Below, piece after piece: positions 3,935 through 29,856 of a stretch of 37,282 nt of DNA; the first letter of the stretch is position 1, and every line of letters begins with the position of its first letter. Where the stretch lies: positions 1 to 37,282 of the forward strand of contig CANQME010000022.1 in the NCBI GenBank assembly GCA_947624815.1. The letters run 5' to 3'. The stretch is from an uncultured Lachnospiraceae bacterium (GTDB lineage: Bacteria; Bacillota; Clostridia; Lachnospirales; Lachnospiraceae). Position numbers and translations under genes: made by a program. Under the pieces are notes generated by a model. That model ran no database searches and was not told the origin of the DNA. It worked only from the letters and a program-made list of their open reading frames with translations.

Positions 3935-4615
3935 TTACCTCCGCCGTTCATCACTGATGATACGCCCATCCTCAACCGTAACGATTCGTTCTGCCGCCAT
4001 GGCAACCTTTTCATCATGGGTAATCAACAGAATGGTCTGTTCCAGATTGCGGTTGGAAAGCTTCAGCATGTCAACGACTTCTTTGGAGTTTTTCTGGTCG
4101 AGATTTCCGGTCGGCTCATCTGCCAGAAGCAGGGCAGGCCGGTAAATCAGGGCGCGTGCAATCGCAACTCTCTGCTGCTGGCCGCCGGATAACTGGTTCG
4201 GCAGAAGATCCAGTTTATCAGCGATTCCAAGAGAGCCTGCAATTTTATCAAAATACTCTTTGTTTGGCTTTTTCTTATCAAGCGCAAGCGGCAATAAAAT
4301 GTTTTTCTTCGCCGTGAGAGTGGGGATCAGGTTATAAAACTGATATACCAGTCCTACCTTCCTGCGACGGAAGATCGCTGCCTGTGTCTGATTCAGTTTG
4401 GAGAGGTCGGTTCCGTCTATAACGACCTTTCCATCCGTAGGTTTGTCCACGCTCCCAAGAATATGCAGCAGCGTGGACTTACCTGACCCGGAGGCCCCAA
4501 GAATTGCCACAAATTCTCCTTTGCTTACTGACAGATCAATTCCGTCAAGCGCTGCTGTCTGATTCCCGCCAGAGCCATATACCTTCCTGACTCCCTCACA
4601 TTTTAAGATTTCCAT
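3935..4615 (-). CDS. ABC transporter ATP-binding protein, LolD/MacB/BceA type
   Basis: A 226-residue nucleotide-binding subunit of normal size. Walker A is GASGSGKST at residues 40-48, the signature is LSGGQQQR, Walker B is [12 protein letters not shown], and the switch histidine is in LLITHDEK. The EPTGNLD form and the adjacent FtsX permease place it in the LolD/MacB/BceA branch, which powers mechanotransmission rather than direct translocation. Its stop overlaps the first possible ATG of the permease by one base, so the two are translationally coupled. It has its own promoter at 4670-4704 carrying the same box as the promoter of the response regulator gene, so it is probably the main regulated output of the two-component system. 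Confidence 0.92.
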
Positions 4616-8938: not shown

Positions 8939-10546
8939 TCAGGGCGCCGCCGGCTGCAAATCATACACCTGTGTAAACTGTTCCTTCCGCTCCGTGGTCA
9001 GGTGGTGGCTGACCAGAATCAGCGTCAGTTCCGGGTTGGCAAGCAGACTTTCCTCCACGATGCCCGCGTTTTTCTGATCCAGGGCGCTGGTGCCCTCGTC
9101 CACCAGGAGGATGGAGCGGTCATGGATCAGCGCCCGGGCAATAGCCACACGCTGTTTTTGCCCTCCGGAGAGATTGCCGCCGTTCTCGCCCACCGGGGTA
9201 TCCAGGCCCTCCGGCATGGCGGCCAGATCTCCAAGGAGCGCGCTGGCCCGCAGGGCTTTCTCCATCTGCCCGTTGGTAAATGTCCCGCCCAAAGTGATGT
9301 TGTCCCGGATGGTAGAGTTAAAAAGGAACACGTTCTGCTCAATGTAACTCATCTGCTCCTGAAGCTGTTCCGGCGTGAAATCCCTGGCGTTCTTATCATC
9401 AAATCGGATGACACCGCCATAGTCCGGCAGCCAGCCCAGCAGAAGCTTCAGCAATGTGGACTTCCCGCAGCCGGAGGGGCCTGTGAGAGCATACTTGCCA
9501 CCCTTCTTAAACTGGAGAGACAGGTCATGCAAAATGGGTTTTTCGCCATATTGGAAGCTGAGGTTTTCCACGGTAATTTCGTTGTTTAAGGGTTCCGGTT
9601 TGGTGTCAGCTTCAGTCCGGGTTTCATTGGCGTGGACAGTGATATTTTTGAAATAGGGCCTGGCGGATGCCAAAGACATACGGTGGTTCGCGATCGTGCG
9701 CAGGCCGTTGGTGATCCCGGCGGTTAAGTTGCTGGCGCTCGCCATAGCGCCAAGGATGATCTTCCCCTGGAATGCCAGAATCACCGTTACTACCTGTTGA
9801 AAGATCTGCAGAGATACACTGAAAAATCCGGTCAGGCAGGAGATACTGAACTGAACGCAGCTTCTGCGGCAGCAGGGGAGTTCCATCAAATCACTCACAG
9901 AATCGCCCTGGCGTAGAAACCGGTCGGTACGGCCAAAGGAACGCAGCACATCAAAGCCGGACAGCAAATCCTTTAGCCTGCTGACACCATCGGCTTCTGC
10001 AGCGGCGCAGGCTTCGCCCAACTGTTCCATGCGCTTCTGGAACAGCTTTGGCGCCACCAGCATCACTACGGCGGAAACCAGTCCGGCTGCCAGCATGAGC
10101 CAATGAAGAGAAAACAGGGCCAGAATGCACCAGACCACCAGCGCGATATTGCCGGCGCAACTAAAAAACGGCTCCCAGGCAAGACGCTCAATCTGCTTGA
10201 CGTTGGTGGTCAGCCAGGAGATGTACTCGCCGGTGTCCTGGCTATGGTAGGACGTATGGGTTTTGTCCAGCAGAGACAAATAGAGGTCGTGACGCACCTG
10301 GTTGTTCATAGTTCGGATTACCCTCGCTTCAAAGATACCCTTAAGAGCCGCTATCCCCATATAAAGGCCATATCCGGCGACCTCCGCCGCTGTCCAAAGC
10401 AGAAAGCTCCGGAAATTCAAATTGATTGCCGCATCAAAAGATCGCATCATGATGAACTGCAGAATCACATAGACACCTTCGCTTAATATTCCGAGGAAGC
10501 AGGCCAGCGCAAGCTTTCTCCAGTTTTTCTTCAAATAATAGTTCAT
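8939..10546 (-). CDS. ABC transporter, fused permease and ATPase (half exporter)
   Basis: A 535-residue type IV ABC exporter half. The membrane domain covers about residues 1-300, with segments near 12-34, 48-70, 130-150, 150-168, 235-260 and 262-282. The ATPase domain covers about 325-530. Walker A is GPSGCGKST at 356-364, the Q-loop is in SYIEQNVFLF, the signature is LSGGQKQR, Walker B is ILLVDEGTSALD, and the H-loop is SHHLT. All catalytic residues are present, including the Walker B glutamate. It is 10 bases downstream of an XRE regulator gene and is co-transcribed with it. A dimer exporting a drug, peptide or lipid is likely; the substrate is unknown. A stand-alone half transporter should act as a homodimer, since no second half is adjacent. 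Confidence 0.9.
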   Translation of the reverse strand: MNYYLKKNWRKLALACFLGILSEGVYVILQFIMMRSFDAAINLNFRSFLLWTAAEVAGYGLYMGIAALKGIFEARVIRTMNNQVRHDLYLSLLDKTHTSYHSQDTGEYISWLTTNVKQIERLAWEPFFSCAGNIALVVWCILALFSLHWLMLAAGLVSAVVMLVAPKLFQKRMEQLGEACAAAEADGVSRLKDLLSGFDVLRSFGRTDRFLRQGDSVSDLMELPCCRRSCVQFSISCLTGFFSVSLQIFQQVVTVILAFQGKIILGAMASASNLTAGITNGLRTIANHRMSLASARPYFKNITVHANETRTEADTKPEPLNNEITVENLSFQYGEKPILHDLSLQFKKGGKYALTGPSGCGKSTLLKLLLGWLPDYGGVIRFDDKNARDFTPEQLQEQMSYIEQNVFLFNSTIRDNITLGGTFTNGQMEKALRASALLGDLAAMPEGLDTPVGENGGNLSGGQKQRVAIARALIHDRSILLVDEGTSALDQKNAGIVEESLLANPELTLILVSHHLTTERKEQFTQVYDLQPAAP

Positions 10547-10556
10547 GCCGATTCTC

Positions 10557-11432
10557 CTAACCCCGCAGCATAGGGGATTTCCGATATGGAGCGTCTAAAA
10601 AAGCGCCTCCGCCCGTGATGAACCATCGGGCAAAATAGAGCAGGGGAACAAGTGCTTCATCCTCGCGAAGCAGATAGGCATAGAGCATCCCATTTTCTGT
10701 CTCCAGATCCATTTTGCTTAACACATCTAACTCAGCCAGTGCGTTCATTAAGGTTTCCGCTTCCGCCACATCCAGGCTCATGGCTTTTGCGATGACCCCC
10801 GGTGTATAACGCCGGTGGTCGAGGCGCGGCTTGGTATGCAGATATTCCAGCAATTCCAGACAGTTAGGCATTGCCAGTACAGAAAACAGCTTACGATACC
10901 GGTCATTTTCTTCAAAAAATGATTTCCAGCCCATTTTGGGTTCTGGCCAGACAGAGACAAAGGACATATCGTTGGCCCGGATACCCAGGATAGTTCCGTC
11001 CTCCATAGAGATTCGTGTGCGCCGAAGCCAATGAACTGCTGCGTTATCCTCCATATCCCCGGATTCACAGCAGTTCTCGTATCCGCTGATATCCATTACG
11101 TCCTCTGGCCGGCTGCTCATAACCGGCCCGGCAGCAAGCCATACCAACCGGCATAACTGGTCAACCCGCTGGCCCTGGGGAACGGTGAGCATCCACCGCC
11201 GCACTGTATCCTCCACGTTGATCTGTTCTCCACCATCCAGGCCGAAAAGGGCGTCGATGGTCACTCCCAACTGCAGGGACAGGACCGGCAGCAGCTCCAC
11301 ATCCGGCGCGCCGCCTTTCTCCCATTTGCCCACAGCCTGATAGGACACTCCCACTAGCCTGCCCAACTGCTCCTGTGTAAGTCCCCGCTCCTTTCGCAGA
11401 GCGGCAATGCGCTCACTTAATATATTCGGCAT
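10557..11432 (-). CDS. XRE-family transcriptional regulator with C-terminal winged-helix-like domain
   Basis: A 291-residue regulator. Residues of about 5-62 are a Cro/C1 helix-turn-helix (LSERIAALRKERGLTQEQLG, then VGVSYQAVGKWEKGGAPDVE). The middle is of unknown fold. Residues of about 193-250 look like a winged helix of the ArsR/MarR kind (LELLEYLHTKPRLDHRRYTP, then GVIAKAMSLDVAEAETLMNA). It is co-transcribed with the downstream ABC exporter and is probably its local regulator. A consensus-like promoter and a 13-base palindrome lie upstream. The two DNA-binding-like parts are unusual; the C-terminal one may instead be a dimer or effector module. Confidence 0.85.
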   Translation of the reverse strand: MPNILSERIAALRKERGLTQEQLGRLVGVSYQAVGKWEKGGAPDVELLPVLSLQLGVTIDALFGLDGGEQINVEDTVRRWMLTVPQGQRVDQLCRLVWLAAGPVMSSRPEDVMDISGYENCCESGDMEDNAAVHWLRRTRISMEDGTILGIRANDMSFVSVWPEPKMGWKSFFEENDRYRKLFSVLAMPNCLELLEYLHTKPRLDHRRYTPGVIAKAMSLDVAEAETLMNALAELDVLSKMDLETENGMLYAYLLREDEALVPLLYFARWFITGGGAFLDAPYRKSPMLRG

Positions 11433-11528: not shown

Positions 11529-11603
11529 TTTTAGGGATAGACGCCCAATTACAAAACGGATATAATAAGCACAGTACATTTAAATGCAGAAAGGCGATCC
11601 GAA

Positions 11604-20375: not shown

Positions 20376-21767
20376 ATGGAAGAAAAAACGAATCAGTTTC
20401 TCGGGGAGGAGCGTATCGGCAGACTGATGCAGAAATATGCGATCCCCTGTATCATTTCTCTGCTGGTAGGCGCTCTCTACAATATTGTAGATCAGATTTT
20501 CATCGCAAATGCTTCATACCTGGGTTCCTACGGGAATGCGGCCAATACGGTCGTTTTCCCGCTGACGGTCATCGCTCTTGCGGCCGCTGTTATGATCGGA
20601 GACGGTTGCTGCGCGTTCGTAAGTCTCAGTCTCGGAATGAAACGTCCGGAGACGGCCAGAAAGAGTGTCGGCAATTCGGTCGTTATGGTGATCGTTTGTG
20701 GTCTTGCGCTCTGTGCGGTATATCTGATCTTCAGCAGTCCGATCATTTCCATGTTCGGCGGGACCGTCAATGAGGAAACATTCCGGTATTCGAAGGAATA
20801 CTTCTTCTACATCACACTCGGGATCCCGTTCTATATGTTCGGGCAGGCGCTGAACCCCATCATCCGGGCCGACGGAAGTCCCCGCTTCGCGATGGTGTCG
20901 ACACTGGCCGGCGCAGTGCTCAATATCATCCTGGATCCGGTCTTTATCTTTGGCTTCCGGTGGGGGATGATGGGCGCCGCCGTGGCGACCGTCCTCGGAC
21001 AGGTCGTGACCGCAGTTCTGGCGGTCGGGTACATCCTGCACATGAAGCTGGTGAAACCCGCGAAGCCGGATTTTCGGCTGGATGGACACGTCTGCCGGAA
21101 AACGCTGGTGCTCGGTATGACCAGCTTCCTGTCGCAGATTTCTCTGGTTGCTTCGATGGCCGCAGTCAACAATATGATCCGGAAATACGGCGCGCTTGAT
21201 CCGGTGTTCGGACAGGAGCAGTACGCGCAGATCCCGATGGCGGTGGTCGGCATTGTGATGAAATTCTTTCAGATCGTCATTTCCATCGTGGTCGGCATGG
21301 CTGCCGGGTGTATTCCTGTCGTCGGTTATAATATGGGAGCTGGGAAGGAGAACCGCGTCAGGGCGCTATTTACCAGGCTGCTGGCTGCGGAGGCGGCGGT
21401 CGGAACCGCGGCGCTTCTCATCGTGGAACTGCTTCCGCAGCAGCTGATCCGTATTTTCGGCGCAGCGAATGAGAGCGTTTACTATACGGATTTTGCGGTC
21501 AGAGCGTTTCGCATCTATCTGTGCATGGTCATATTTGCCTGTGTAAATAAAGCCTGCTTTATCTTCCTGCAGGCGATGGGTAAGGCGGCGGCCTCCACGG
21601 CGCTGTCTATGATCCGTGAGATCGTCTTTGGCGTTGGGTTCGCGCTTTTGCTGCCGGTCTTCTTCGGCCTTGACGGCGTTCTGTATTCCATGCCGCTTTC
21701 TGATATCCTGACGTTTGTGATCGCCGTCTGGCTGATCGCGGGGACGTACAGGGATTTAAAGGGATGA
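20376..21767 (+). CDS. MATE-family multidrug efflux transporter
   Basis: A 463-residue protein with about 12 membrane segments, the MATE/DinF size. It starts MEEKTNQFLGEERIGRLMQK and reads into the family's conserved first segment (YAIPCIISLLVGALYNIVDQ, then IFIANASYLGSYGNA). The two halves are pseudo-symmetric, and the GMAAGCIPVVGYNMGAG block recurs in the second half as expected for MepA-like members. Such proteins expel cationic drugs or metabolites with Na+ or H+. Start 20376 follows AGGAAGG with 7 bases; a longer in-frame reading from 20304 runs through the leader hairpin. It is monocistronic. Its stop overlaps the convergent hydF gene by 12 bases. Confidence 0.9.
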   Translation: MEEKTNQFLGEERIGRLMQKYAIPCIISLLVGALYNIVDQIFIANASYLGSYGNAANTVVFPLTVIALAAAVMIGDGCCAFVSLSLGMKRPETARKSVGNSVVMVIVCGLALCAVYLIFSSPIISMFGGTVNEETFRYSKEYFFYITLGIPFYMFGQALNPIIRADGSPRFAMVSTLAGAVLNIILDPVFIFGFRWGMMGAAVATVLGQVVTAVLAVGYILHMKLVKPAKPDFRLDGHVCRKTLVLGMTSFLSQISLVASMAAVNNMIRKYGALDPVFGQEQYAQIPMAVVGIVMKFFQIVISIVVGMAAGCIPVVGYNMGAGKENRVRALFTRLLAAEAAVGTAALLIVELLPQQLIRIFGAANESVYYTDFAVRAFRIYLCMVIFACVNKACFIFLQAMGKAAASTALSMIREIVFGVGFALLLPVFFGLDGVLYSMPLSDILTFVIAVWLIAGTYRDLKG

Positions 21768-22976
21768 CGGGTTGCCCTCCAACGCCGCCAGGATATCCGG
21801 AAACGCCTGCAGGCTCCGCTTCAGGATCCCGTTCATGCAGGCGATGGCGATTCCGTAATTGACGATGGGAACGCCGGCCTGGACGGCGCGGCCGATGCGG
21901 TGCTTCATTTCCTTCTCATTCAGCATACAGCCGCCGCAGTGGACCACCAGCGTGAATTCCGACAGATCTTCCGGAAATTCGGTGCCGGAGGTGAAGGTAT
22001 AGACCGGCTTCGCGCCGCTGTACGCTTCGATCCAGTTGGGCAGCTTGACCGTCCCGATGTCGTTGCACTGGCGGTGATGGGTGCAGCCCTCGCTGATCAG
22101 GACTTTGTCGCCGTCCTTCAGGCGGGACAGCCGGGCGGCGCCTTCGACCAGACGCTGAAGACTGCCCTTATAACGGGCGAACAGGATGGAAAATGAGGTA
22201 AGCAGCACGTCGTCGGGCGTGTCTGCGGCCACCTTCTTAAATGCCTGGGAGTCGGTAACGACCAGCTTCGGTTTCCGGGAGAGATCGGAAAGCGTCTGCT
22301 TCAGCTCTTCGGGCTGGCAGGTGATGAAGGTGCAGTGGACGTCCAGGATCTCCCGCATGGTCTGCTGTTGGGGCAGGATCAGGCGGCCCTTGGGCGCGGC
22401 CTCGTCCACCGGAACCACCAGGACGACGATGTCGCCGGGCTTTAGAAGGTCGGCCAGAATATATTTGTCCCTTGCGGCGGCCGGCGCGAAGGCGCCGATC
22501 TTCTCTTTCAGTTCGTAAATGCCGTCGCGGGTGACGGCGCTGACAAGGATTTCGTTGTCTTTAAGCGCAGGCTCCCAATCGATCAGGTCCGCTTTATTGT
22601 AGACGACCAGATACGGCAGCTTCTTCTCTTCAAACAGTTCGATCAGTTCCTCATCCGCTCCCGTGCGGCCCCGCGTGGAGTCGACCACCAGAACGGCGAT
22701 GTCCGTCTGGGCCAGGATCTGGCGGGCTTTTTTAACGCGCTGCGCCCCCAGTTCCCCTTCGTCGTCCAGACCGGGCGTGTCGATGATCACGACCGGTCCC
22801 AGGGGAAGTAGCTCCATGGCCTTCTTCACCGGATCGGTGGTGGTGCCCTTGATATCCGAAACAACGGCCAGATCCTGGCCGGTGACCGCGTTGACCAGGC
22901 TGGATTTGCCGGCGTTGCGGACGCCGAAGAAGCCGATATGCAGGCGTTCGGCGGATACGGTTTCGTTCAGTCCCAT
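21756..22976 (-). CDS. hydF: [FeFe]-hydrogenase H-cluster maturation GTPase HydF
   Basis: A 406-residue protein with the three HydF parts. The GTPase domain has P-loop GVRNAGKSS near residues 18-26, switch TTTDPV, DTPGLDD and NKAD. A dimerisation domain follows at about 175-270. The C-terminal 4Fe-4S domain has CTHHRQCND near 305-315 and HCGGCMLN near 355-362. It scaffolds the 2Fe subcluster and delivers it to the hydrogenase. Start 22976 gives AGGAG a 6-base spacer; the ATG at 22979 is an alternative. The gene lies just after a TM1266-type gene in one operon. HydE, HydG and the hydrogenase itself are not in the window. The convergent MATE gene overlaps its end by 12 bases. Confidence 0.93.
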   Translation of the reverse strand: MGLNETVSAERLHIGFFGVRNAGKSSLVNAVTGQDLAVVSDIKGTTTDPVKKAMELLPLGPVVIIDTPGLDDEGELGAQRVKKARQILAQTDIAVLVVDSTRGRTGADEELIELFEEKKLPYLVVYNKADLIDWEPALKDNEILVSAVTRDGIYELKEKIGAFAPAAARDKYILADLLKPGDIVVLVVPVDEAAPKGRLILPQQQTMREILDVHCTFITCQPEELKQTLSDLSRKPKLVVTDSQAFKKVAADTPDDVLLTSFSILFARYKGSLQRLVEGAARLSRLKDGDKVLISEGCTHHRQCNDIGTVKLPNWIEAYSGAKPVYTFTSGTEFPEDLSEFTLVVHCGGCMLNEKEMKHRIGRAVQAGVPIVNYGIAIACMNGILKRSLQAFPDILAALEGNPSSL

Positions 22977-22988
22977 CATGCTCTCCTT

Positions 22989-23553: not shown

Positions 23554-26151
23554 ATGGGCAATGATTTGACACAGAATAATTACGCAAAAAAGGATCGGAG
23601 CCTGACGGCGACGGGGATCGTGATCGCCGTGATCGTTATATTGCTGGTTTCCGCTTTTTTCAGTATCAACTCGGTGCTTCGCCAACGGTCCTTAAGCCGC
23701 GTGGAAGAGGGCGCCGATACGGTCATCGAGGAGGTAACGTCCAAGCTGGCGCGGGACAGCCGGATCTTAAACGCCGCGGCGGAGATCATTTCCCAGGCGG
23801 ATAACTTTGATCCGGAAGCGACCAGGGAGGTCATGATGACGCTTGCCCCGCTTCTTGAGACGATGCAGATACGTGTTCTTATGCCCGACGATTCGCTCCT
23901 GACGCTCGGTGAAACGGTTATCAACCCGACCGACGGCAGCGGGATATCCTTCGCGGAGGAAGCGCCCCTGGGGGAGCATGTATCGAACCGCCAGAAAAGC
24001 CTTACGTCCGGGAAGCCGGTTCTGCGCCACTATGTGCCGATCGTACAGAACGGGCAGGTGGCGGCGCTGCTTTACGGCGTTACGGAGCTTTCGACGCTGG
24101 AGAACAGTCTGAATATTGATAATATCTATAATGCGAGCGCCAGCGTTTACATCATTGATGCGCGTACGGGAGATTTCATCCTGGATACCTGGCACGATGA
24201 GCTGCTCAATATCGCCGACTACGACGGATCGGACCGCGAGACGAAGGGGGATACCACCTGGGATGACTATCTGGACGATCTGACAAGCCTGGAATCCGGT
24301 TATGTCGTCTTCAGGACGTCCCGAATGGACGACTGGGAGTATATGTATTACGCGCCGGCCGGCATCAACGAATGGTCCATCGCCGTATCCGTACCGGAGA
24401 AGGAAGCGTTCGCCAGCGTGTATGCGGTTCAGCGGGTCTGCCTGGTTCTGGGCCTTCTGATGGCGGTTACGATCATCCTGTATTACCTGTGGGTCAGGCG
24501 CAACGCGGCCGAGATCATGAACCGGGCCGTGGAGCAGGCGGTCATGGCGGAGAAGCTGCAGAAGGCGGAGGCCGCCGACCGTGCCAAGAGCGTGTTCCTT
24601 TCCAATATGTCCCATGATATCCGTACGCCGATGAATGCGATCATCGGGTTCACGACGCTGGCGGAGACGAATATTGACAATAAGGAGCGCACCCAGGAGT
24701 ATCTTAAGAAGATACTTTCCTCCAGCAATCATCTTCTCAGCCTGATCAACGACATTCTGGATATGAGCCGGATCGAGAGCGGGAAGCTGAACATTGAGGA
24801 GAAGGAATGCAGCATTTCCGACATTTTCAAGGACATGCGCAATATCATCCAGCCGCAGATGCAGTCCAAGCAGCTGAATTTCTTCATGGACACCGTGGAT
24901 GTGGTGGACGAGGATATCTACTGCGACAAGCTGCATGTGAATCAGGTGCTGCTGAACCTCCTCTCCAACGCGATCAAGTTCACGCCGGCCGGCGGCACCA
25001 TCGCCCTGACGGTCCGGCAGAAGCCGCGCGCCCCCAAGGGCTACGGTTCCTACGAGATCCGGGTCAAGGATACCGGGATCGGCATGAGCGACGAATTTAT
25101 CCGCCATATCTTTGAGCCCTTTGAGCGGGAGCGCAATTCTACGGTCAGCGGCATTCAGGGTACCGGTCTCGGCATGGCCATTACGAAGAATATCGTGGAT
25201 ACCATGGGCGGCACCATCGAGGTGAAGTCGGAGCAGGGCAAGGGAACCGAATTTGTCATCAATATCGACTTCCGTCTTCAGACGGAGCCGCAGAAGATCG
25301 AGATCGTGGAGGAGCTGCAGGGCATGCGTGCCCTGGTCGTGGACGACAGCTTCGACACCTGCGACAGCGTGACGAAGATGCTGACCCAGATCGGCATGCG
25401 CTCCGAGTGGGCCATGCACGGCAAGGAAGCGGTGCTTCGCGCCAGACAGGCGTATGAAATGGGCGACGAATACCACGTATACATCATCGACTGGTTCCTT
25501 CCGGATCTGGGCGGCCTGGAGGTGGTGCGGCAGATCCGTTCCATCGTGGGCGAAGGCGCGCCGATCATCATCGTCACGGCCTATGACTGGACCGCCATCG
25601 AGGATGAGGCCAGGGCAGCAGGCGTGACGGCCTTCTGCAATAAGCCGATCTTCCTGTCTGAGCTGAGAGATATCCTGCTTTCCGCTACCTGCAGTTCGGT
25701 TTCGATGCAGCAGGAGAAGGAGAGCCTGATCCCGGGTCTGTCGGATCAGTTAAAGGGCACGCGCCTGCTGCTGACAGAGGACAATGAGCTGAACCGGGAG
25801 ATCGCCGTGGAGCTTCTGACGGACAGCGGCTTTGTGGTGGATACGGCGGAGGACGGCACGATCGCCGTAGAGAAGGTGAAGAATTCTGAGCCGGGATATT
25901 ATGGGCTGATCCTGATGGATATCCAGATGCCGAAGATGAACGGCTACGAGGCCACGAAGGCCATTCGGGCGCTGGACAGCCCGGTTCTGGCCAATATCCC
26001 CATCGTCGCCATGACGGCCAACGCGTTCGAGGAGGACCGGAGGCAGGCGCTGGAGTGCGGCATGAACGCGCATATCGCCAAGCCGATCGATGTGGAGAAG
26101 CTTCTGGAGGTCATTACGGGCATTCTGAACCAGAATAAAATTTCGGGTTGA
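23554..26151 (+). CDS. hybrid sensor histidine kinase with two receiver domains
   Basis: An 865-residue membrane kinase. Membrane segments are near residues 20-40 and 290-312, enclosing an external sensor domain of about 250 residues of the Cache kind. The H-box is NMSHDIRTPMNAI with His354, the N-box NLLSNAIKFTPAGG, and the ATP lid DTGIGMSDEF and GTGLGMAITKN. Receiver 1 (about 608-725) has Asp646 in YIIDWFLPD, and receiver 2 (about 742-858) has Asp789 in LILMDIQMPKMNG with AKPID. Both look complete. AAGGAG is 10 bases before the ATG. No DNA-binding output or phosphotransfer protein is adjacent, so the output is unknown. The gene is single and is followed at once by the T-box operon, whose promoter overlaps its stop codon. 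Confidence 0.92.
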   Translation: MGNDLTQNNYAKKDRSLTATGIVIAVIVILLVSAFFSINSVLRQRSLSRVEEGADTVIEEVTSKLARDSRILNAAAEIISQADNFDPEATREVMMTLAPLLETMQIRVLMPDDSLLTLGETVINPTDGSGISFAEEAPLGEHVSNRQKSLTSGKPVLRHYVPIVQNGQVAALLYGVTELSTLENSLNIDNIYNASASVYIIDARTGDFILDTWHDELLNIADYDGSDRETKGDTTWDDYLDDLTSLESGYVVFRTSRMDDWEYMYYAPAGINEWSIAVSVPEKEAFASVYAVQRVCLVLGLLMAVTIILYYLWVRRNAAEIMNRAVEQAVMAEKLQKAEAADRAKSVFLSNMSHDIRTPMNAIIGFTTLAETNIDNKERTQEYLKKILSSSNHLLSLINDILDMSRIESGKLNIEEKECSISDIFKDMRNIIQPQMQSKQLNFFMDTVDVVDEDIYCDKLHVNQVLLNLLSNAIKFTPAGGTIALTVRQKPRAPKGYGSYEIRVKDTGIGMSDEFIRHIFEPFERERNSTVSGIQGTGLGMAITKNIVDTMGGTIEVKSEQGKGTEFVINIDFRLQTEPQKIEIVEELQGMRALVVDDSFDTCDSVTKMLTQIGMRSEWAMHGKEAVLRARQAYEMGDEYHVYIIDWFLPDLGGLEVVRQIRSIVGEGAPIIIVTAYDWTAIEDEARAAGVTAFCNKPIFLSELRDILLSATCSSVSMQQEKESLIPGLSDQLKGTRLLLTEDNELNREIAVELLTDSGFVVDTAEDGTIAVEKVKNSEPGYYGLILMDIQMPKMNGYEATKAIRALDSPVLANIPIVAMTANAFEEDRRQALECGMNAHIAKPIDVEKLLEVITGILNQNKISG

Positions 26152-26176
26152 CATTTTATGGAAAGGCGTATAGAAT
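26148..26176 (+). promoter_or_regulatory. promoter of the T-box operon
   Basis: TTGACA (26148-26153) and TAGAAT (26171-26176) are 17 bases apart. The -35 overlaps the stop codon of the kinase gene (26149-26151). Transcription should start near 26183, just upstream of T-box stem I. Confidence 0.7.
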
Positions 26177-26184
26177 TACTTTAA

Positions 26185-26500
26185 ACCAGTGAAGAGGAAG
26201 TTGCGCTTTGAGAACGGTCTGCAGAGAGTCCGGGATGGTGTGATCCGGGCGATGTCAGTCAGAGCGAGTGGGCCTTGGAGGGCGAGATGAAAGGAAGCCG
26301 GAAAGTGCGGTCATGCAGGCGCGGTCAGAAGCCGCGGCGGATCGGAACACGGCGCCGAGTAGTTGAGACGCACAGCCGGCGTTAACGGGCGCGGGATGTG
26401 ATGGCATCCCGTAGAGAGGGCATACGAAGGTATGTCAATTAAGGTGGCACCGCAGGTTCCGGCCTGTCCTTGAAGAGATTCAGGGGCAGGCCGATTTTCG
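26185..26500 (+). promoter_or_regulatory. T-box riboswitch, probably tRNA(Trp)-responsive
   Basis: Stem I: CGCTTTGA (26204-26211) pairs with TCAGAGCG (26259-26266), and above it CCGGGAT (26230-26236) with ATCCGGG (26243-26249) closes a GGTGTG loop preceded by AGAGA, the usual distal AG-bulge region. Between the upper helix and GAGG/CCTT (26194-26197 with 26273-26276) lies the specifier loop, with UGG at 26269-26271 followed by a purine. The T-box AAGGTGGCACCGC is at 26441-26453; its UGGC (26445-26448) fits a tRNA ending GCCA, and bacterial tRNA(Trp) has discriminator G. The terminator is GGCCTGTCCTTGAA (26461-26474) with TTCAGGGGCAGGCC (26479-26492), then a short T-run. Val (GUG) is a second, less fitting specifier. 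Confidence 0.85.
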
Positions 26501-26517
26501 TGAAGGCAAATTGTTAC

Positions 26518-26712
26518 AGCGCCGGCGCCGTTGCAGAAGGCCGGCGGTTCCGCTTGCGGAAGCCGGCGGCCAGCTGCACACGGCAGAGCGGGCATTGGAA
26601 CAATGCCCGCGACCGAGAAAACGCGCAGCGTTTTCGAGGCGGCGCGTACCGGTGGCGAACGTACCCGGTGGCGCACGCTCCGCTTGCGCGTTCTAAGCGC
26701 CGGCGCCGTTGC
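26518..26712. repeat. 17-bp direct repeats bracketing a hairpin-rich segment
   Basis: AGCGCCGGCGCCGTTGC occurs at 26518-26534 and again at 26696-26712. Between them are several perfect or near-perfect stems: GCCGGCGG-type around 26540-26568, GCGGGCATT/AATGCCCGC near 26589-26611, GAAAACGC/GCGTTTTC near 26617-26635 and a GCGCACGC/GCTTGCGCG region. It lies in the mRNA leader between the T-box terminator and the first gene. It resembles an inserted repeat element; no transposase gene is present. Confidence 0.6.
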
Positions 26713-26740
26713 CCAACACATTACAGGAGGACGAACAGCC

Positions 26741-27088
26741 ATGGACGACAATTTCACCCTATACGACCTGAAGGTAGAGGTAGTGGCGACCGACAGACCG
26801 ATGGTCTGCGGCCACCGGCCCGGCGACTACTTCCTGGTGGAAGGAGAGAATCTGGTATTTCCGCAGACCCGCTCCTTCTCCATGTACTCGCTGGCGGCGC
26901 TTCTGCCGCTTCTGCCGGCCAAGCAGAGGCCGCTGCAGGACAACGACTGGATGCTGTCGGACAGCCTGATCGCCTGTCCGGATCCCAACTGCGGCGCGAA
27001 ATTTAAGATCACCCGGATCCGGAAGCGGACGCAGAGCCACGGGGAATGCACCGTGGTGCCGGTGGGCGAGCAGCCGGAGAAGGACTGA
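26741..27088 (+). CDS. TIGR04076-family protein
   Basis: A 115-residue soluble protein starting MDDNFTLYDLKVEVVATDRP. The pattern of a beta-rich start, CGHRPGDYFLVEG, a central LLPLLPAKQRPL helix, then CPDPNCGAKFKITRI matches the TIGR04076 family of small proteins of unknown function that often sit beside aldo/keto reductases. Conserved cysteines include the CGHRPG one and CPDPNC. Start 26741 has AGGAGG 10 bases upstream; a longer open frame from 26531 runs through the repeat segment and lacks support. It is the first gene behind the T-box, followed by the reductase and transporter genes. No catalytic role is assigned. Confidence 0.75.
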   Translation: MDDNFTLYDLKVEVVATDRPMVCGHRPGDYFLVEGENLVFPQTRSFSMYSLAALLPLLPAKQRPLQDNDWMLSDSLIACPDPNCGAKFKITRIRKRTQSHGECTVVPVGEQPEKD

Positions 27089-27094
27089 AGACGG

Positions 27095-27203
27095 CCGCCG
27101 CGGCCGCCCGCGCAGGAGCGGGACGGCGCAGAGAGGGCGGCCTTCGCGGCGGAAATATACCGCCGCAAACGGATTAGAGCGAGAACGTCCCGTTTACGGG
27201 ACG
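27095..27203. repeat. GC-rich hairpins between the first two operon genes
   Basis: CCGCCGCGGCCGCCC (27095-27109) faces GGGCGGC and CGCGGCGG (27135-27152), an alternative stem CGGCGG/CCGCCG is at 27147-27165, and CGTCCCG/CGGGACG at 27186-27203. There is no T-run, so these are not terminators. They may set mRNA stability or processing within the operon. Confidence 0.5.
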
Positions 27204-27238
27204 CTGCTGCATAGATATAACAAGGAGGAGAACACGAG

Positions 27239-28306
27239 ATGATAGAAAAGATCACATCATCACGCATCACACTGGACAACGGCTATCAGTTCAGCCGTGT
27301 GATCAACGGCGGCTGGCAGCTGTCGGCCGAGCACTGCCTGAAGGGGCAGCTGGACATTGACGACGCGATCAAGGCGTTTCATATGCTGAGAGAGCGGGGA
27401 CTGACGACCTTCGACTGCGCGGACATCTACACCGGAGTCGAGGAGATCCTGGGCCGCTTTGTCAATGAACTGCGGGCCACAGGCAATTACACCCACGACA
27501 TGATCCAGATCCACACCAAGTTCGTTCCGGATCTGAATATCCTGGATCAGGTAGATTTCGCTTACACGGAGAAGGTGGTAGACCGGAGCCTCATGCGCAT
27601 GCACCGGGACTGCCTGGACCTGGTGCAGTTCCACTGGTGGGATTACGATGTGCCCGGGATGATGGAGACGGCCTTCGATCTGGTAAAGCTTCAGGAGAAG
27701 GGCAAGATCCGCAATATCGCCATGTGCAATTTCGATACGCCCCATCTGAAGATGATGATCGACGCCGGCATCCATGTGGTCTCCAACCAGACCCAGTACT
27801 CCCTCTTCGACCGGCGGCCCGAGCGGGCGCTTCTGGATTACTCGCGGCAGCATGACGTCTACTGCTTCTGCTACGGCGCGCTGTCCGGCGGCTTCCTGGC
27901 GGAGCGCTGGATCGGAGTAAAGCGGGAGGATTTCGAGCCGGAGACCCGTTCCCATGTGAAATACCTGCAGATCATCGAGGATTCCATGGGCTGGAACGGC
28001 TACCAGAAGCTTCTGCTGTTCCTGAAGGATATCGCCGACAGGCATCAGGTCAGCATCGCCAATGTGGCGGTCAAATATATCCTGGACCAGCCGGGCGTCG
28101 GCGCGGTCATGGTGGGCTGCCGCAACAGTAAGCACGTGGAAGACAACGCGCGTCTGGCGGAGTTCGATCTGACGGATGAAGAGCTTCAGAGCATCCGCGA
28201 CTTCATTTCCCGGTATCCGACGCCGGAAGGCGAGCCGTTCACCCTGGAGCGGACGCCCGGATCGCGGTACCGGAACATCATGAAAATGAATCTGAACAAG
28301 GCGTGA
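27239..28306 (+). CDS. aldo/keto reductase
   Basis: A 355-residue TIM-barrel oxidoreductase. The catalytic tetrad is visible as Asp59 and Tyr64 in FDCADIY, Lys94 in HTKF and His132 in QFHWWDYD. The nucleotide-binding end reads GVGAVMVGCRNSKHVEDNAR. Members of this family reduce aldehydes or ketones with NAD(P)H. AAGGAGG precedes the ATG. It lies between the TIGR04076 gene and the NhaC-type transporter in the T-box operon, so its substrate may be linked to tryptophan or an indole-type keto acid; that is inference from context only. The protein is slightly longer than typical AKRs (about 320), through a C-terminal tail. Confidence 0.9.
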   Translation: MIEKITSSRITLDNGYQFSRVINGGWQLSAEHCLKGQLDIDDAIKAFHMLRERGLTTFDCADIYTGVEEILGRFVNELRATGNYTHDMIQIHTKFVPDLNILDQVDFAYTEKVVDRSLMRMHRDCLDLVQFHWWDYDVPGMMETAFDLVKLQEKGKIRNIAMCNFDTPHLKMMIDAGIHVVSNQTQYSLFDRRPERALLDYSRQHDVYCFCYGALSGGFLAERWIGVKREDFEPETRSHVKYLQIIEDSMGWNGYQKLLLFLKDIADRHQVSIANVAVKYILDQPGVGAVMVGCRNSKHVEDNARLAEFDLTDEELQSIRDFISRYPTPEGEPFTLERTPGSRYRNIMKMNLNKA

Positions 28307-28364
28307 CGGCCGGCGGCGCGTATCTGCGCGGCATTGTACGGAAAAAGAAATCGTGTAAGGAGAT

Positions 28365-29756
28365 ATGAATAAAATGAAACAGCAGGAAACCAAATTACAG
28401 TTCCGCGGCGGCGTGATGCTTTCCCTCGTCCCCGTGGTGATCTACGTATTCTTCTGTGTGGTACTTTTTATCGGCTTTAAGGCGTTTAATATGGAATCCC
28501 TGGCGGTGGGCGGCTTTCTGGCCCTTCTCGTGGGCGGCCTGTTCTGCACCAGCTATTCCGATTTCTGGGATAGTGTGATCCGGGGCATTTCCTCGGTGAC
28601 GTCCGTCTCGGTCGTCGTGATCCTGCTGCTGGTGGGCATGTTCAGCCAGCTGATCAAGACCTGCGGCCTGTCCGGCGGTTTCGTCTGGATGGCCAACGCC
28701 CTCGGCATGAGGGGCGGGATCTTCGTGGCGTTCACCTTCCTGGCCACCTGCATCGTCTCGACGGCCACCGGTTCGTCCATCGGCACCATGTTCATCGCGT
28801 TCCCGATCTTCTACCCGGCGGGTCTGATCCTGGGGGCCAATGAAATGTTCATGGCCGGAAGCATCGTGTCCGGCGCTATCTTCGGCGACAATCTGGCGCC
28901 GATCTCCGACACCACCATCGCTTCCTCCTCTACGCAGCAGTTTAAGGACGGCCGTCCGGCCGATATCGGCGGCGTCGTGGCCAGCCGGATCAAGTATTCC
29001 GCGGTGGCCGGTCTGGTTACGATCGTGATCTTCGCCATCTTCGGCGGAATGGGCGGCACTTATCAGGGCGGCGAGATCGACGCGATCGCGAATCCCATGT
29101 CTCTGGTCATGCTGATCCCGGTGGTGGTGATGCTGGCGGTGGCCACGAAGACCCGCAATATCTTCGAGGGCATCCTGGTGGGCCTGGGACTTGGCACGAT
29201 CGTCGGCCTGGCAGCAGGGCTCTTCCCCTTCAGCGCCGTCTTCGCCAATGACGCGGCCAACAACGCGGCGACCGGATTCCTGATCGACGGCGTCAACGGG
29301 ATCCTGCCCACCTGCGCTCTGGTCATCTCCGTCTTCGGCATCATGGGCGTGCTTAACGACGCCGGGATGCTGAACCTGATCGCCGATAAGATTCTGAAGA
29401 GCAATATGGCCCAGACAGATTCCGGCGCGGAGCTGATCTGCATGGCCGGCATCGCGCTGACGACGGTTCTTCTGGGCGGCGTCACCAGCGCGTCCATCCT
29501 GACCTTCGGACCGATCCTCAACAAGATCGGTTCCGCCAAGAATATCCATCCATACCGGCGCGCCAACCTGCTGGACGGCACCGCCAACAGCCTTCCGGCC
29601 ATCGTGCCGTTCATGAGCGTCTTCGTCTTCATCGGCGCTGCGCTGACCGGCCTGTCGCCGCTTGTCGTGGCGGGCGGAACGATCTACGGCTTCGCGCTGT
29701 TCATCGTCTTCCTGTTCGCGGTCATTACCGGCTGGGGACGGAAGAAGGAAGAATAA
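28365..29756 (+). CDS. NhaC-family Na+/H+ antiporter-type transporter, possible amino acid transporter
   Basis: A 463-residue integral membrane protein with about 11-12 segments. The family signature is clear: GAIFGDNLAPISDTTIASSS near residues 168-187, and a matching GTANSLPAIVPF block in the second half. NhaC relatives include Na+/H+ antiporters and malate/lactate exchangers, and some have been proposed as amino acid transporters because T-boxes precede them. Here the T-box specifier suggests tryptophan, so Na+-coupled uptake of tryptophan or a related compound is a reasonable guess. AAGGAG precedes two in-frame ATGs, 28365 and 28374; the second has the more usual distance. It ends the operon at a 20-bp terminator stem. 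Confidence 0.88.
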   Translation: MNKMKQQETKLQFRGGVMLSLVPVVIYVFFCVVLFIGFKAFNMESLAVGGFLALLVGGLFCTSYSDFWDSVIRGISSVTSVSVVVILLLVGMFSQLIKTCGLSGGFVWMANALGMRGGIFVAFTFLATCIVSTATGSSIGTMFIAFPIFYPAGLILGANEMFMAGSIVSGAIFGDNLAPISDTTIASSSTQQFKDGRPADIGGVVASRIKYSAVAGLVTIVIFAIFGGMGGTYQGGEIDAIANPMSLVMLIPVVVMLAVATKTRNIFEGILVGLGLGTIVGLAAGLFPFSAVFANDAANNAATGFLIDGVNGILPTCALVISVFGIMGVLNDAGMLNLIADKILKSNMAQTDSGAELICMAGIALTTVLLGGVTSASILTFGPILNKIGSAKNIHPYRRANLLDGTANSLPAIVPFMSVFVFIGAALTGLSPLVVAGGTIYGFALFIVFLFAVITGWGRKKEE

Positions 29757-29771
29757 TTACCGGAAATGTAT

Positions 29772-29856
29772 AAGGGCTGCCGCAGACAGCGTCTACCCGC
29801 CGCCGGGTCCCCGGCCATCGGGCGGAGCGCTGTCTGCGGCAGCCCTTGATTTCTTA
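29772..29856 (+). terminator. long-stem terminator of the T-box operon
   Basis: AAGGGCTGCCGCAGACAGCG (29772-29791) pairs perfectly with CGCTGTCTGCGGCAGCCCTT (29828-29847), a 20-bp stem with a 36-base loop that has its own GC-rich stem. The tail TGATTTCTT is T-rich. It lies 15 bases after the transporter stop. Confidence 0.7.

Follow-up and report, generated by a model that had tools for sequence, protein, structure and literature searches.

In a window of 37,282 nucleotides (positions 1 to 37,282 of contig CANQME010000022.1) from an uncultured Lachnospiraceae bacterium of the gut (GCA_947624815.1), we found an operon that is almost certainly under the control of tryptophan (Trp) through a T-box leader. 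It runs from 26148 to 29756 (-35 box to NhaC stop codon) and consists of a promoter, a full-length T-box leader, an antiterminator, a terminator and then the genes of a TIGR04076 family protein, an aldo/keto reductase (AKR) and an NhaC-family carrier, all on the + strand; this layout, noticed earlier in a first-pass annotation of the DNA, was confirmed here. The carrier probably imports Trp or a Trp derivative, a judgement that sums our best reading of the operon and its closest rival, import of L-tryptophan itself. That best reading, in which a Trp T-box governs import by NhaC and processing of the imported compound by the TIGR04076-AKR pair, has about an even chance of holding as a whole. 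NhaC under a tyrosine (Tyr) T-box and an NhaC-type histidine importer were known already; what appears to be new is the joining of NhaC to a conserved enzyme pair under Trp-specific control, and a Trp T-box with NhaC, TIGR04076 and AKR was not found in the open-licence literature searched.

Rfam cmscan, run with permissive filters, matched the T-box family RF00230 at 26180-26474 (+) over model positions 1-219 of 219 (63.8 bits, E 1.8e-13), so that the covariance-model scan called for in the first-pass annotation bore out its claim of a full T-box in the leader. Default cmscan lists no T-box in the window because 63.8 bits lies below the RF00230 gathering score of 93, a score that only 2 of the 11 T-boxes detected in the genome reach, the other 9, the window's included, falling short of it. 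Stem I carries a specifier loop between two paired helices, which were assessed in an alignment of 15 leaders of the operon. The lower helix (5' strand 26194-26197 (+), partner 26273-26276) had 100% of cells paired and compensatory changes in 3 of 4 pairs, and the helix above the loop (5' strand 26205-26211 (+), partner 26259-26265) had 91.4% of cells paired and compensatory changes in 6 of 7. Together, 94.5% of cells were paired and 9 of 11 pairs were compensatory, with a covariation of 0.560 vs 0.281 in shuffles. Sliding the partner strand by one base dropped the paired cells to about 50%, and RNAalifold predicted the same helices around the specifier loop.

Downstream of stem I, an antiterminator with the T-box bulge UGGCACC (26445-26451) was located at 26441-26471 (+) from the sequence and from the minimum-energy fold of 26441-26481, which is the canonical antiterminator with this 7-nt bulge (-8.5 kcal/mol). 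Shuffling gave folds at least as stable in 158 of 200 cases (z 0.8), so the call rests on form and not on energy. An intrinsic terminator-like stem of 15 pairs followed by ATTTTCG was found at 26460-26493 (+; 0.4 expected per shuffle), and most of the z of -3.6 for the fold of 26441-26508 came from this terminator. The antiterminator with its UGGN bulge and the terminator have CCUGUCCUU in common. Judged by these sequence elements, the window leader is a T-box riboswitch of the transcriptional antitermination type.

The specifier was read as UGG (Trp) at 26269-26271 (+). UGG stood at the specifier place in all 16 T-box leaders of the operon, namely the window, 13 fetched relatives (L013-L017, L019, L021-L025, L027, L034) and the genomes G088 and G1359. 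Because the regular expression that listed these leaders itself asked for UGG, the alignment of 15 sequences (G1359 left out) is the fairer test of the specifier; there, the UGG columns were invariant, the base before them was G in 13 leaders and A in 2, and the base after them was G in 14 and A in 1. TBDB locates the specifier within its bulge, 2-4 bases away from the 3' end (PMC7778990), a rule that gives UGG in the window leader. Invariant across the alignment and flanked by covarying helices, the Trp specifier proposed in the first-pass annotation thus held up.

As a control, the rule NNN-R-5 nt-GAG was applied to the other 10 T-boxes of the genome; several matches were possible, and the one 81-86 bases from the Rfam start, the window's place, was taken. 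With the genes behind these T-boxes named by eye from their translations, the rule gave the expected amino acid for 6 of 10 (Met for metN, Trp for trpE, Trp for trpB2, Tyr for tyrS, Pro for proS and Ile for ileS). The Trp cases were backed by family matches, to TrpA and TrpB on contig C3 and, below the TrpB cut-off, to a TrpB-like sequence on C28. The trpE and trpB2 leaders of this genome read like the window leader, with UGG at the matching place, and Trp T-box leaders in general, including those of the Trp ABC and NSS carriers tabulated in PMC2494555, have the UGG specifier, a UGGC or UGGU bulge and antitermination in common with it. The window leader differs from Trp T-box leaders elsewhere in controlling NhaC, TIGR04076 and AKR. 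A separate T-box of the genome (L003, G000:C147) has ACC (Thr) at the specifier place, and the next gene, judged by eye, is AAA-ATPase-like and not a synthetase.

The T-box bulge was compared with the discriminator base of tRNA-Trp. Of the 17 genome handles searched, 16 contained a tRNA-Trp pattern (13 of 14 distinct genomes, three handles being repeats of others as judged by identical coordinates), G302 being the exception, and in all 16 places read the acceptor stem was followed by discriminator G. ARAGORN was run on 13 of the 16 tRNA loci and recognised tRNA-Trp at 12 of them; it made no call at L107, the own-genome copy, of which just the 3' half is intact. The UGG specifier is therefore matched by a tRNA-Trp with discriminator G, and the earlier argument that a UGGC bulge fits such a tRNA agrees with these counts. 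The variable base of the bulge was C in 7 of 16 leaders (window, L013, L014, L015, L022, L023, L024) and U in 9 (L016, L017, L019, L021, L025, L027, L034, G088, G1359). In TBDB, U in the bulge occurs with discriminator G in 46% of Trp T-boxes, a G-U exception of the Trp family (PMC7778990). Because UGGC fits G, yet 9 of 16 leaders have U and TBDB pairs U with G this often, the discriminator supports Trp and does not decide it.

The operon was followed in relatives through a sample of 28 fetched NhaC loci. Thirteen of these had a T-box core upstream together with all three genes (the 13 relatives listed above), five were cut off upstream (L012, L020, L033, L035, L038), and six had NhaC but not the pair (L026, L029-L032, L037), with no Rfam T-box at E 0.01. 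Genes were in pieces in a few loci (NhaC of L034; AKR of L020 and L039). Whole-genome searches added two further T-box operons, in G088 (NhaC 54% identical) and in G1359 (AKR 59%, NhaC 52%), the latter from another family of the same phylum, so that the T-box was retained down to 54% and 52% NhaC identity. All three genes were matched in each of the 16 T-box loci, in two gene orders; in L023 and L025 it is NhaC that directly follows the T-box. As the first-pass annotation had pointed out, the operon contains no biosynthesis gene, its three genes being TIGR04076, AKR and NhaC. At E 1e-100, 7 of the 299 family genomes searched had an NhaC match, counting the own genome, and one of the seven (G046) lacked the pair; TIGR04076 was matched in 2 of 349 Lactobacillaceae at E 1e-12 and, at E 1e-15, in the own genome only among 392 of the order; AKR was matched at E 1e-60 in 2 of 398 genomes of the phylum, own included. 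The operon is rare and scattered, a pattern that suggests either transfer from lineage to lineage or frequent loss.

The carrier gene (28365-29756 (+), 463 aa) encodes a protein that scored above the gathering score of PF03553 (Na_H_antiporter; 57.7 vs 23 bits) and far below the cut-off of the Na+/H+ antiporter equivalog TIGR00931 (63.1 vs 370 bits). Its structure model had a pLDDT of 85.4, and a search of the PDB by sequence gave no match. The NhaC alignment excluded the protein from Limosilactobacillus gastricus (L028), whose frame contains a stop. In four of the six loci without the pair (L026, L030, L031, L032), the gene just upstream of NhaC encodes a class I/II aminotransferase. The first-pass annotation remarked that NhaC proteins are not usually called Trp carriers, a remark that needs qualifying in that amino acid control of NhaC-family carriers has been described before. 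PMC2494555 tabulates NhaC genes governed by Tyr T-boxes, their carriers being assigned to Tyr itself, and has ABC and NSS carriers in its Trp rows; an NhaC-like gene of C. difficile stands under a lysine riboswitch (PMC11477304), and the NhaC-type protein SAUSA300_0846 was identified as a histidine importer by radiolabel uptake (PMC10817146). An nhaC missense change is also listed in B. subtilis adapted to 4-fluoro-Trp (PMC3971595), a weak hint. The Tyr T-box carriers, the histidine importer, the B. subtilis change and the aminotransferase neighbours point to an amino acid or its keto acid as the substrate, not to sodium balance.

The closest known systems differ from the window operon in defined ways. 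The Tyr T-box NhaC carriers of Bacillus, Oceanobacillus, Lactobacillus and Enterococcus (PMC2494555) likewise place NhaC under an amino acid T-box, but for a different amino acid. The histidine importer SAUSA300_0846 resembles the window protein in being an NhaC-type amino acid importer, but it acts on histidine under proposed HisR control, and it is likened here by its description and not by sequence (PMC10817146). In L. mucosae (L027), a second NhaC gene (10040-11425 (-)) is situated some 2.6 kb past the Trp T-box operon. It is preceded by a separate T-box near 11583 (Rfam match), whose specifier was read by eye as UAC (Tyr), and the gene product is only 24% identical to the window NhaC over the matched part. 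To our knowledge, no enzyme pair accompanies Tyr T-box NhaC carriers.

The pair is made up of the TIGR04076 gene (26741-27088 (+), 115 aa; TIGR04076.1, 65 bits, cut-off 33) and the AKR gene (27239-28306 (+), 355 aa; PF00248, 210.8 bits). The catalytic tetrad of aldo/keto reductases is D-Y-K-H; it is kept in the window AKR as D59, Y64, K94 and H132, and its columns showed no variation among the 12 operon sequences aligned or among the 10 sequences of a wider alignment. Searching the PDB by sequence returned distant AKRs for the reductase and no credible match for TIGR04076, which also had no Pfam match at E 0.001 and whose structure model (pLDDT 77) had no PDB fold match at E 0.001 or better. 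Nine TIGR04076 sequences from Firmicutes, alphaproteobacteria and one haloarchaeon have 34 invariant residues. AKR relatives at E 1e-60 were found on 24 plasmid records, all below 60% identity, and six regions among these were read (four Hyphomicrobiales, one Paracoccaceae, one haloarchaeon). In the five alphaproteobacterial regions (L118-L121, L123), genes for GntR, TIGR04076, AKR and a substrate-binding protein, in this order, are divergent from genes annotated as a branched-chain amino acid ABC transporter and from another AKR, an arrangement that looks like a cluster for uptake and redox chemistry. In L121 the TIGR04076 place is taken by a small protein annotated as hypothetical, and in L123 one gene lies between AKR and the substrate-binding protein. 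In the haloarchaeal region the pair is near a peptide-type ABC transporter. The alphaproteobacterial clusters resemble the window operon in having TIGR04076 beside an AKR 45-46% identical to the window AKR, together with a transporter, and differ in having an ABC transporter instead of NhaC, a GntR regulator instead of a T-box, and a second AKR.

Since the pair goes with transporters of amino-acid-like compounds in all six regions, it would be expected to act on the compound that its carrier brings in; we regard the proposal that it processes an imported compound here as evenly poised between holding and failing. The uptake and possible conversion that the first-pass annotation proposed for an indolic compound are plausible, but 'indolic' may be too narrow a term for the AKR pair, given that its six regions in other phyla have no visible Trp link. 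More tentatively, and with less confidence, TIGR04076 and AKR could form an unnamed two-part enzyme of Firmicutes, alphaproteobacteria and a haloarchaeon for compounds delivered by a paired amino-acid-type transporter, which is wired here to tRNA-Trp charging and would give gut bacteria a source of Trp other than free Trp or indole (e.g. a Trp keto acid, hydroxy acid or conjugate).

The trp genes of the host genomes bear on what this compound might be. Among the 20 genome handles asked, TrpA was matched in 16 (13 of 17 distinct genomes), in G208 (= G310) as two pieces only, one with a stop, and it was not found in G088, G308 (L022), G312 (L. mucosae) and G313 (L. gastricus). TrpB was not matched in L. 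mucosae either and was above the cut-off in L. gastricus; because both records are drafts, absence of trp genes in these two species is not proven. If L. mucosae has neither TrpA nor TrpB, the operon can hardly serve the step from indole to Trp, and the compound should be Trp or carry its side chain.

In the mechanism that we propose, uncharged tRNA-Trp would, when Trp is short, pair its anticodon with UGG and its GCCA end with UGGC; the antiterminator would then form and the three genes would be read, a mechanism borrowed from the known T-box family, the elements of which are seen in this leader. The NhaC carrier would bring in Trp or a close Trp derivative, driven by Na+ or H+, and, as the least certain step, the TIGR04076-AKR module would turn the imported compound into Trp or a direct precursor. 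The T-box offers strong leverage on the function of three proteins about which little has been published, the term TIGR04076 having turned up in a single paper of the library searched; it adds Trp to Tyr among the amino acids whose T-boxes govern NhaC carriers and narrows the function of TIGR04076 and AKR to a short list of Trp-related candidates. If the pair does make Trp from a derivative, this would be a new route in gut bacteria competing for host tryptophan.

The rival with appreciable weight, though short of an even chance, is that NhaC imports L-tryptophan itself and that TIGR04076 and AKR are unrelated or accessory (e.g. redox housekeeping). It is in keeping with the Tyr T-box NhaC carriers being assigned to Tyr itself (PMC2494555), with an NhaC-type protein taking up histidine itself (PMC10817146), and with the occurrence of NhaC without the pair in 6 of 28 fetched loci and in G046, but it leaves unexplained why the pair was matched in 16 of 16 T-box operons of two gene orders and adjoins transporters in six regions of other phyla. 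In another alternative, the carrier would export a product or protect the cell from a toxic indolic compound, Trp starvation being a mere signal of that state; antiporters can run either way, and AKRs often detoxify carbonyls. We consider this alternative unlikely, as the vast majority of T-box genes serve amino acid transport, synthesis or charging (PMC2494555). That NhaC simply balances pH or salt as an ordinary Na+/H+ antiporter, as its family name and PF03553 match would have it, is very improbable given its 63.1 of 370 bits for TIGR00931, the Trp control and the aminotransferase partner in four relatives. Finally, a response of the leader to some other tRNA (GUG Val, GGG Gly, GAG Glu or AGC Ser) is barely credible. 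Although AGCGAGUGGG in the window alone holds these triplets too, UGG is the one triplet retained in L023 (GAAUGGA), in L027 (GAAUGGG) and in the trpE and trpB2 leaders of the same genome as the window, and TBDB placement within the bulge gives UGG (PMC7778990). All four other readings were rejected, since none was kept across the operon leaders and the own trpE and trpB2 leaders; GUG, named beforehand in the first-pass annotation as the codon that could overturn UGG, fails in particular on the A that precedes UGG in L023, L027, own trpE and own trpB2.

Several observations weigh against our preferred reading of a Trp T-box with NhaC import and processing by the pair. Several of the 16 leaders come from near-identical relatives and are not independent, and the covariation controls do not remove relatedness, the structure having been drawn from the window sequence. 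For pheS and valS the control rule yielded nothing usable, and it returned Asn ahead of an AspRS-like gene and Thr ahead of a gene that could not be named from its translation. Four of the 20 operons with upstream DNA (L018, L028, L036, L039) matched all three genes and had no Rfam T-box at E 0.01; among these, no control element was recognised upstream of L018, and a palindrome found in L036 and L039 (see below), sought in three genomes at up to 3 mismatches, could not be linked to trp genes. The NhaC frame of L. gastricus (L028) has one in-frame stop, which may mean decay of this operon or a mistake in the record. The six regions from other phyla showed no visible Trp link of the AKR pair. 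TrpA was matched in most genomes asked, and a need for import is not proven.

In L. gastricus, no T-box was found upstream of the operon, and where relatives have the T-box, L028 has at 4343-4393 a short leader open reading frame (ORF) containing two Trp codons, with a ribosome-site-like motif, MTFNDLQFNTAWQSWH, and hairpins behind it. A first chance estimate (ATG/GTG/TTG start, two Trp codons anywhere) proved too loose to use, as 25.75% of 2000 shuffles reached it; a stricter criterion (ATG, ribosome-site-like motif, two Trp codons near the end) was reached by 23 of 5000 shuffles and by 9 of 2738 tiles of fetched DNA. The evidence is moderate, because the criterion was set after the ORF had been seen and four T-box-less operons were looked at. 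If real, the leader ORF would mean Trp control by a different device and a possible switch of control.

Just upstream of TIGR04076 in L036 and L039, in place of the missing T-box, lies a near-identical 28-base palindrome, TTATCACTGT-N8-ACAGTGATAA, that overlaps a -35-like TTGCAC and is a possible repressor site of some regulator. Two of the three genomes searched each had one perfect copy of this palindrome, and one of these two had a further copy with 3 mismatches.

The remaining features of the locus complete the operon. A promoter-like sequence of the sigma-70 type, TTGACA-17-TAGAAT, was found at 26148-26176 (+) by a consensus scan, with 11 of 12 positions matching and 0.3 such sites expected per shuffle. 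Behind the operon, a perfect inverted repeat of 20 bp with arms 36 nt apart (29772-29847 (+)) is possibly the end of the transcript. The neighbouring genes are those of HydF (hydrogenase maturation; 21756-22979 (-)) and a hybrid sensor kinase (23554-26151), with no Trp link seen. The genome comprises 207 contigs with a completeness of 87.8%, and the nearest records found were uncultured Lachnospiraceae assemblies (isolates Lapin), with NhaC identities to the window of at most 97%. Between the T-box terminator and TIGR04076, a spacer of 247 bases (26495-26740 (+)) carries a dispersed GC-rich repeat, whose only further copies found in this genome stand behind two other T-boxes, those of metN and the AspRS-like gene (L001 1375-1531; L008 1772-1924 and 1984-2049). 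The same repeat occurs at the matching place in L013, L015 and L024.

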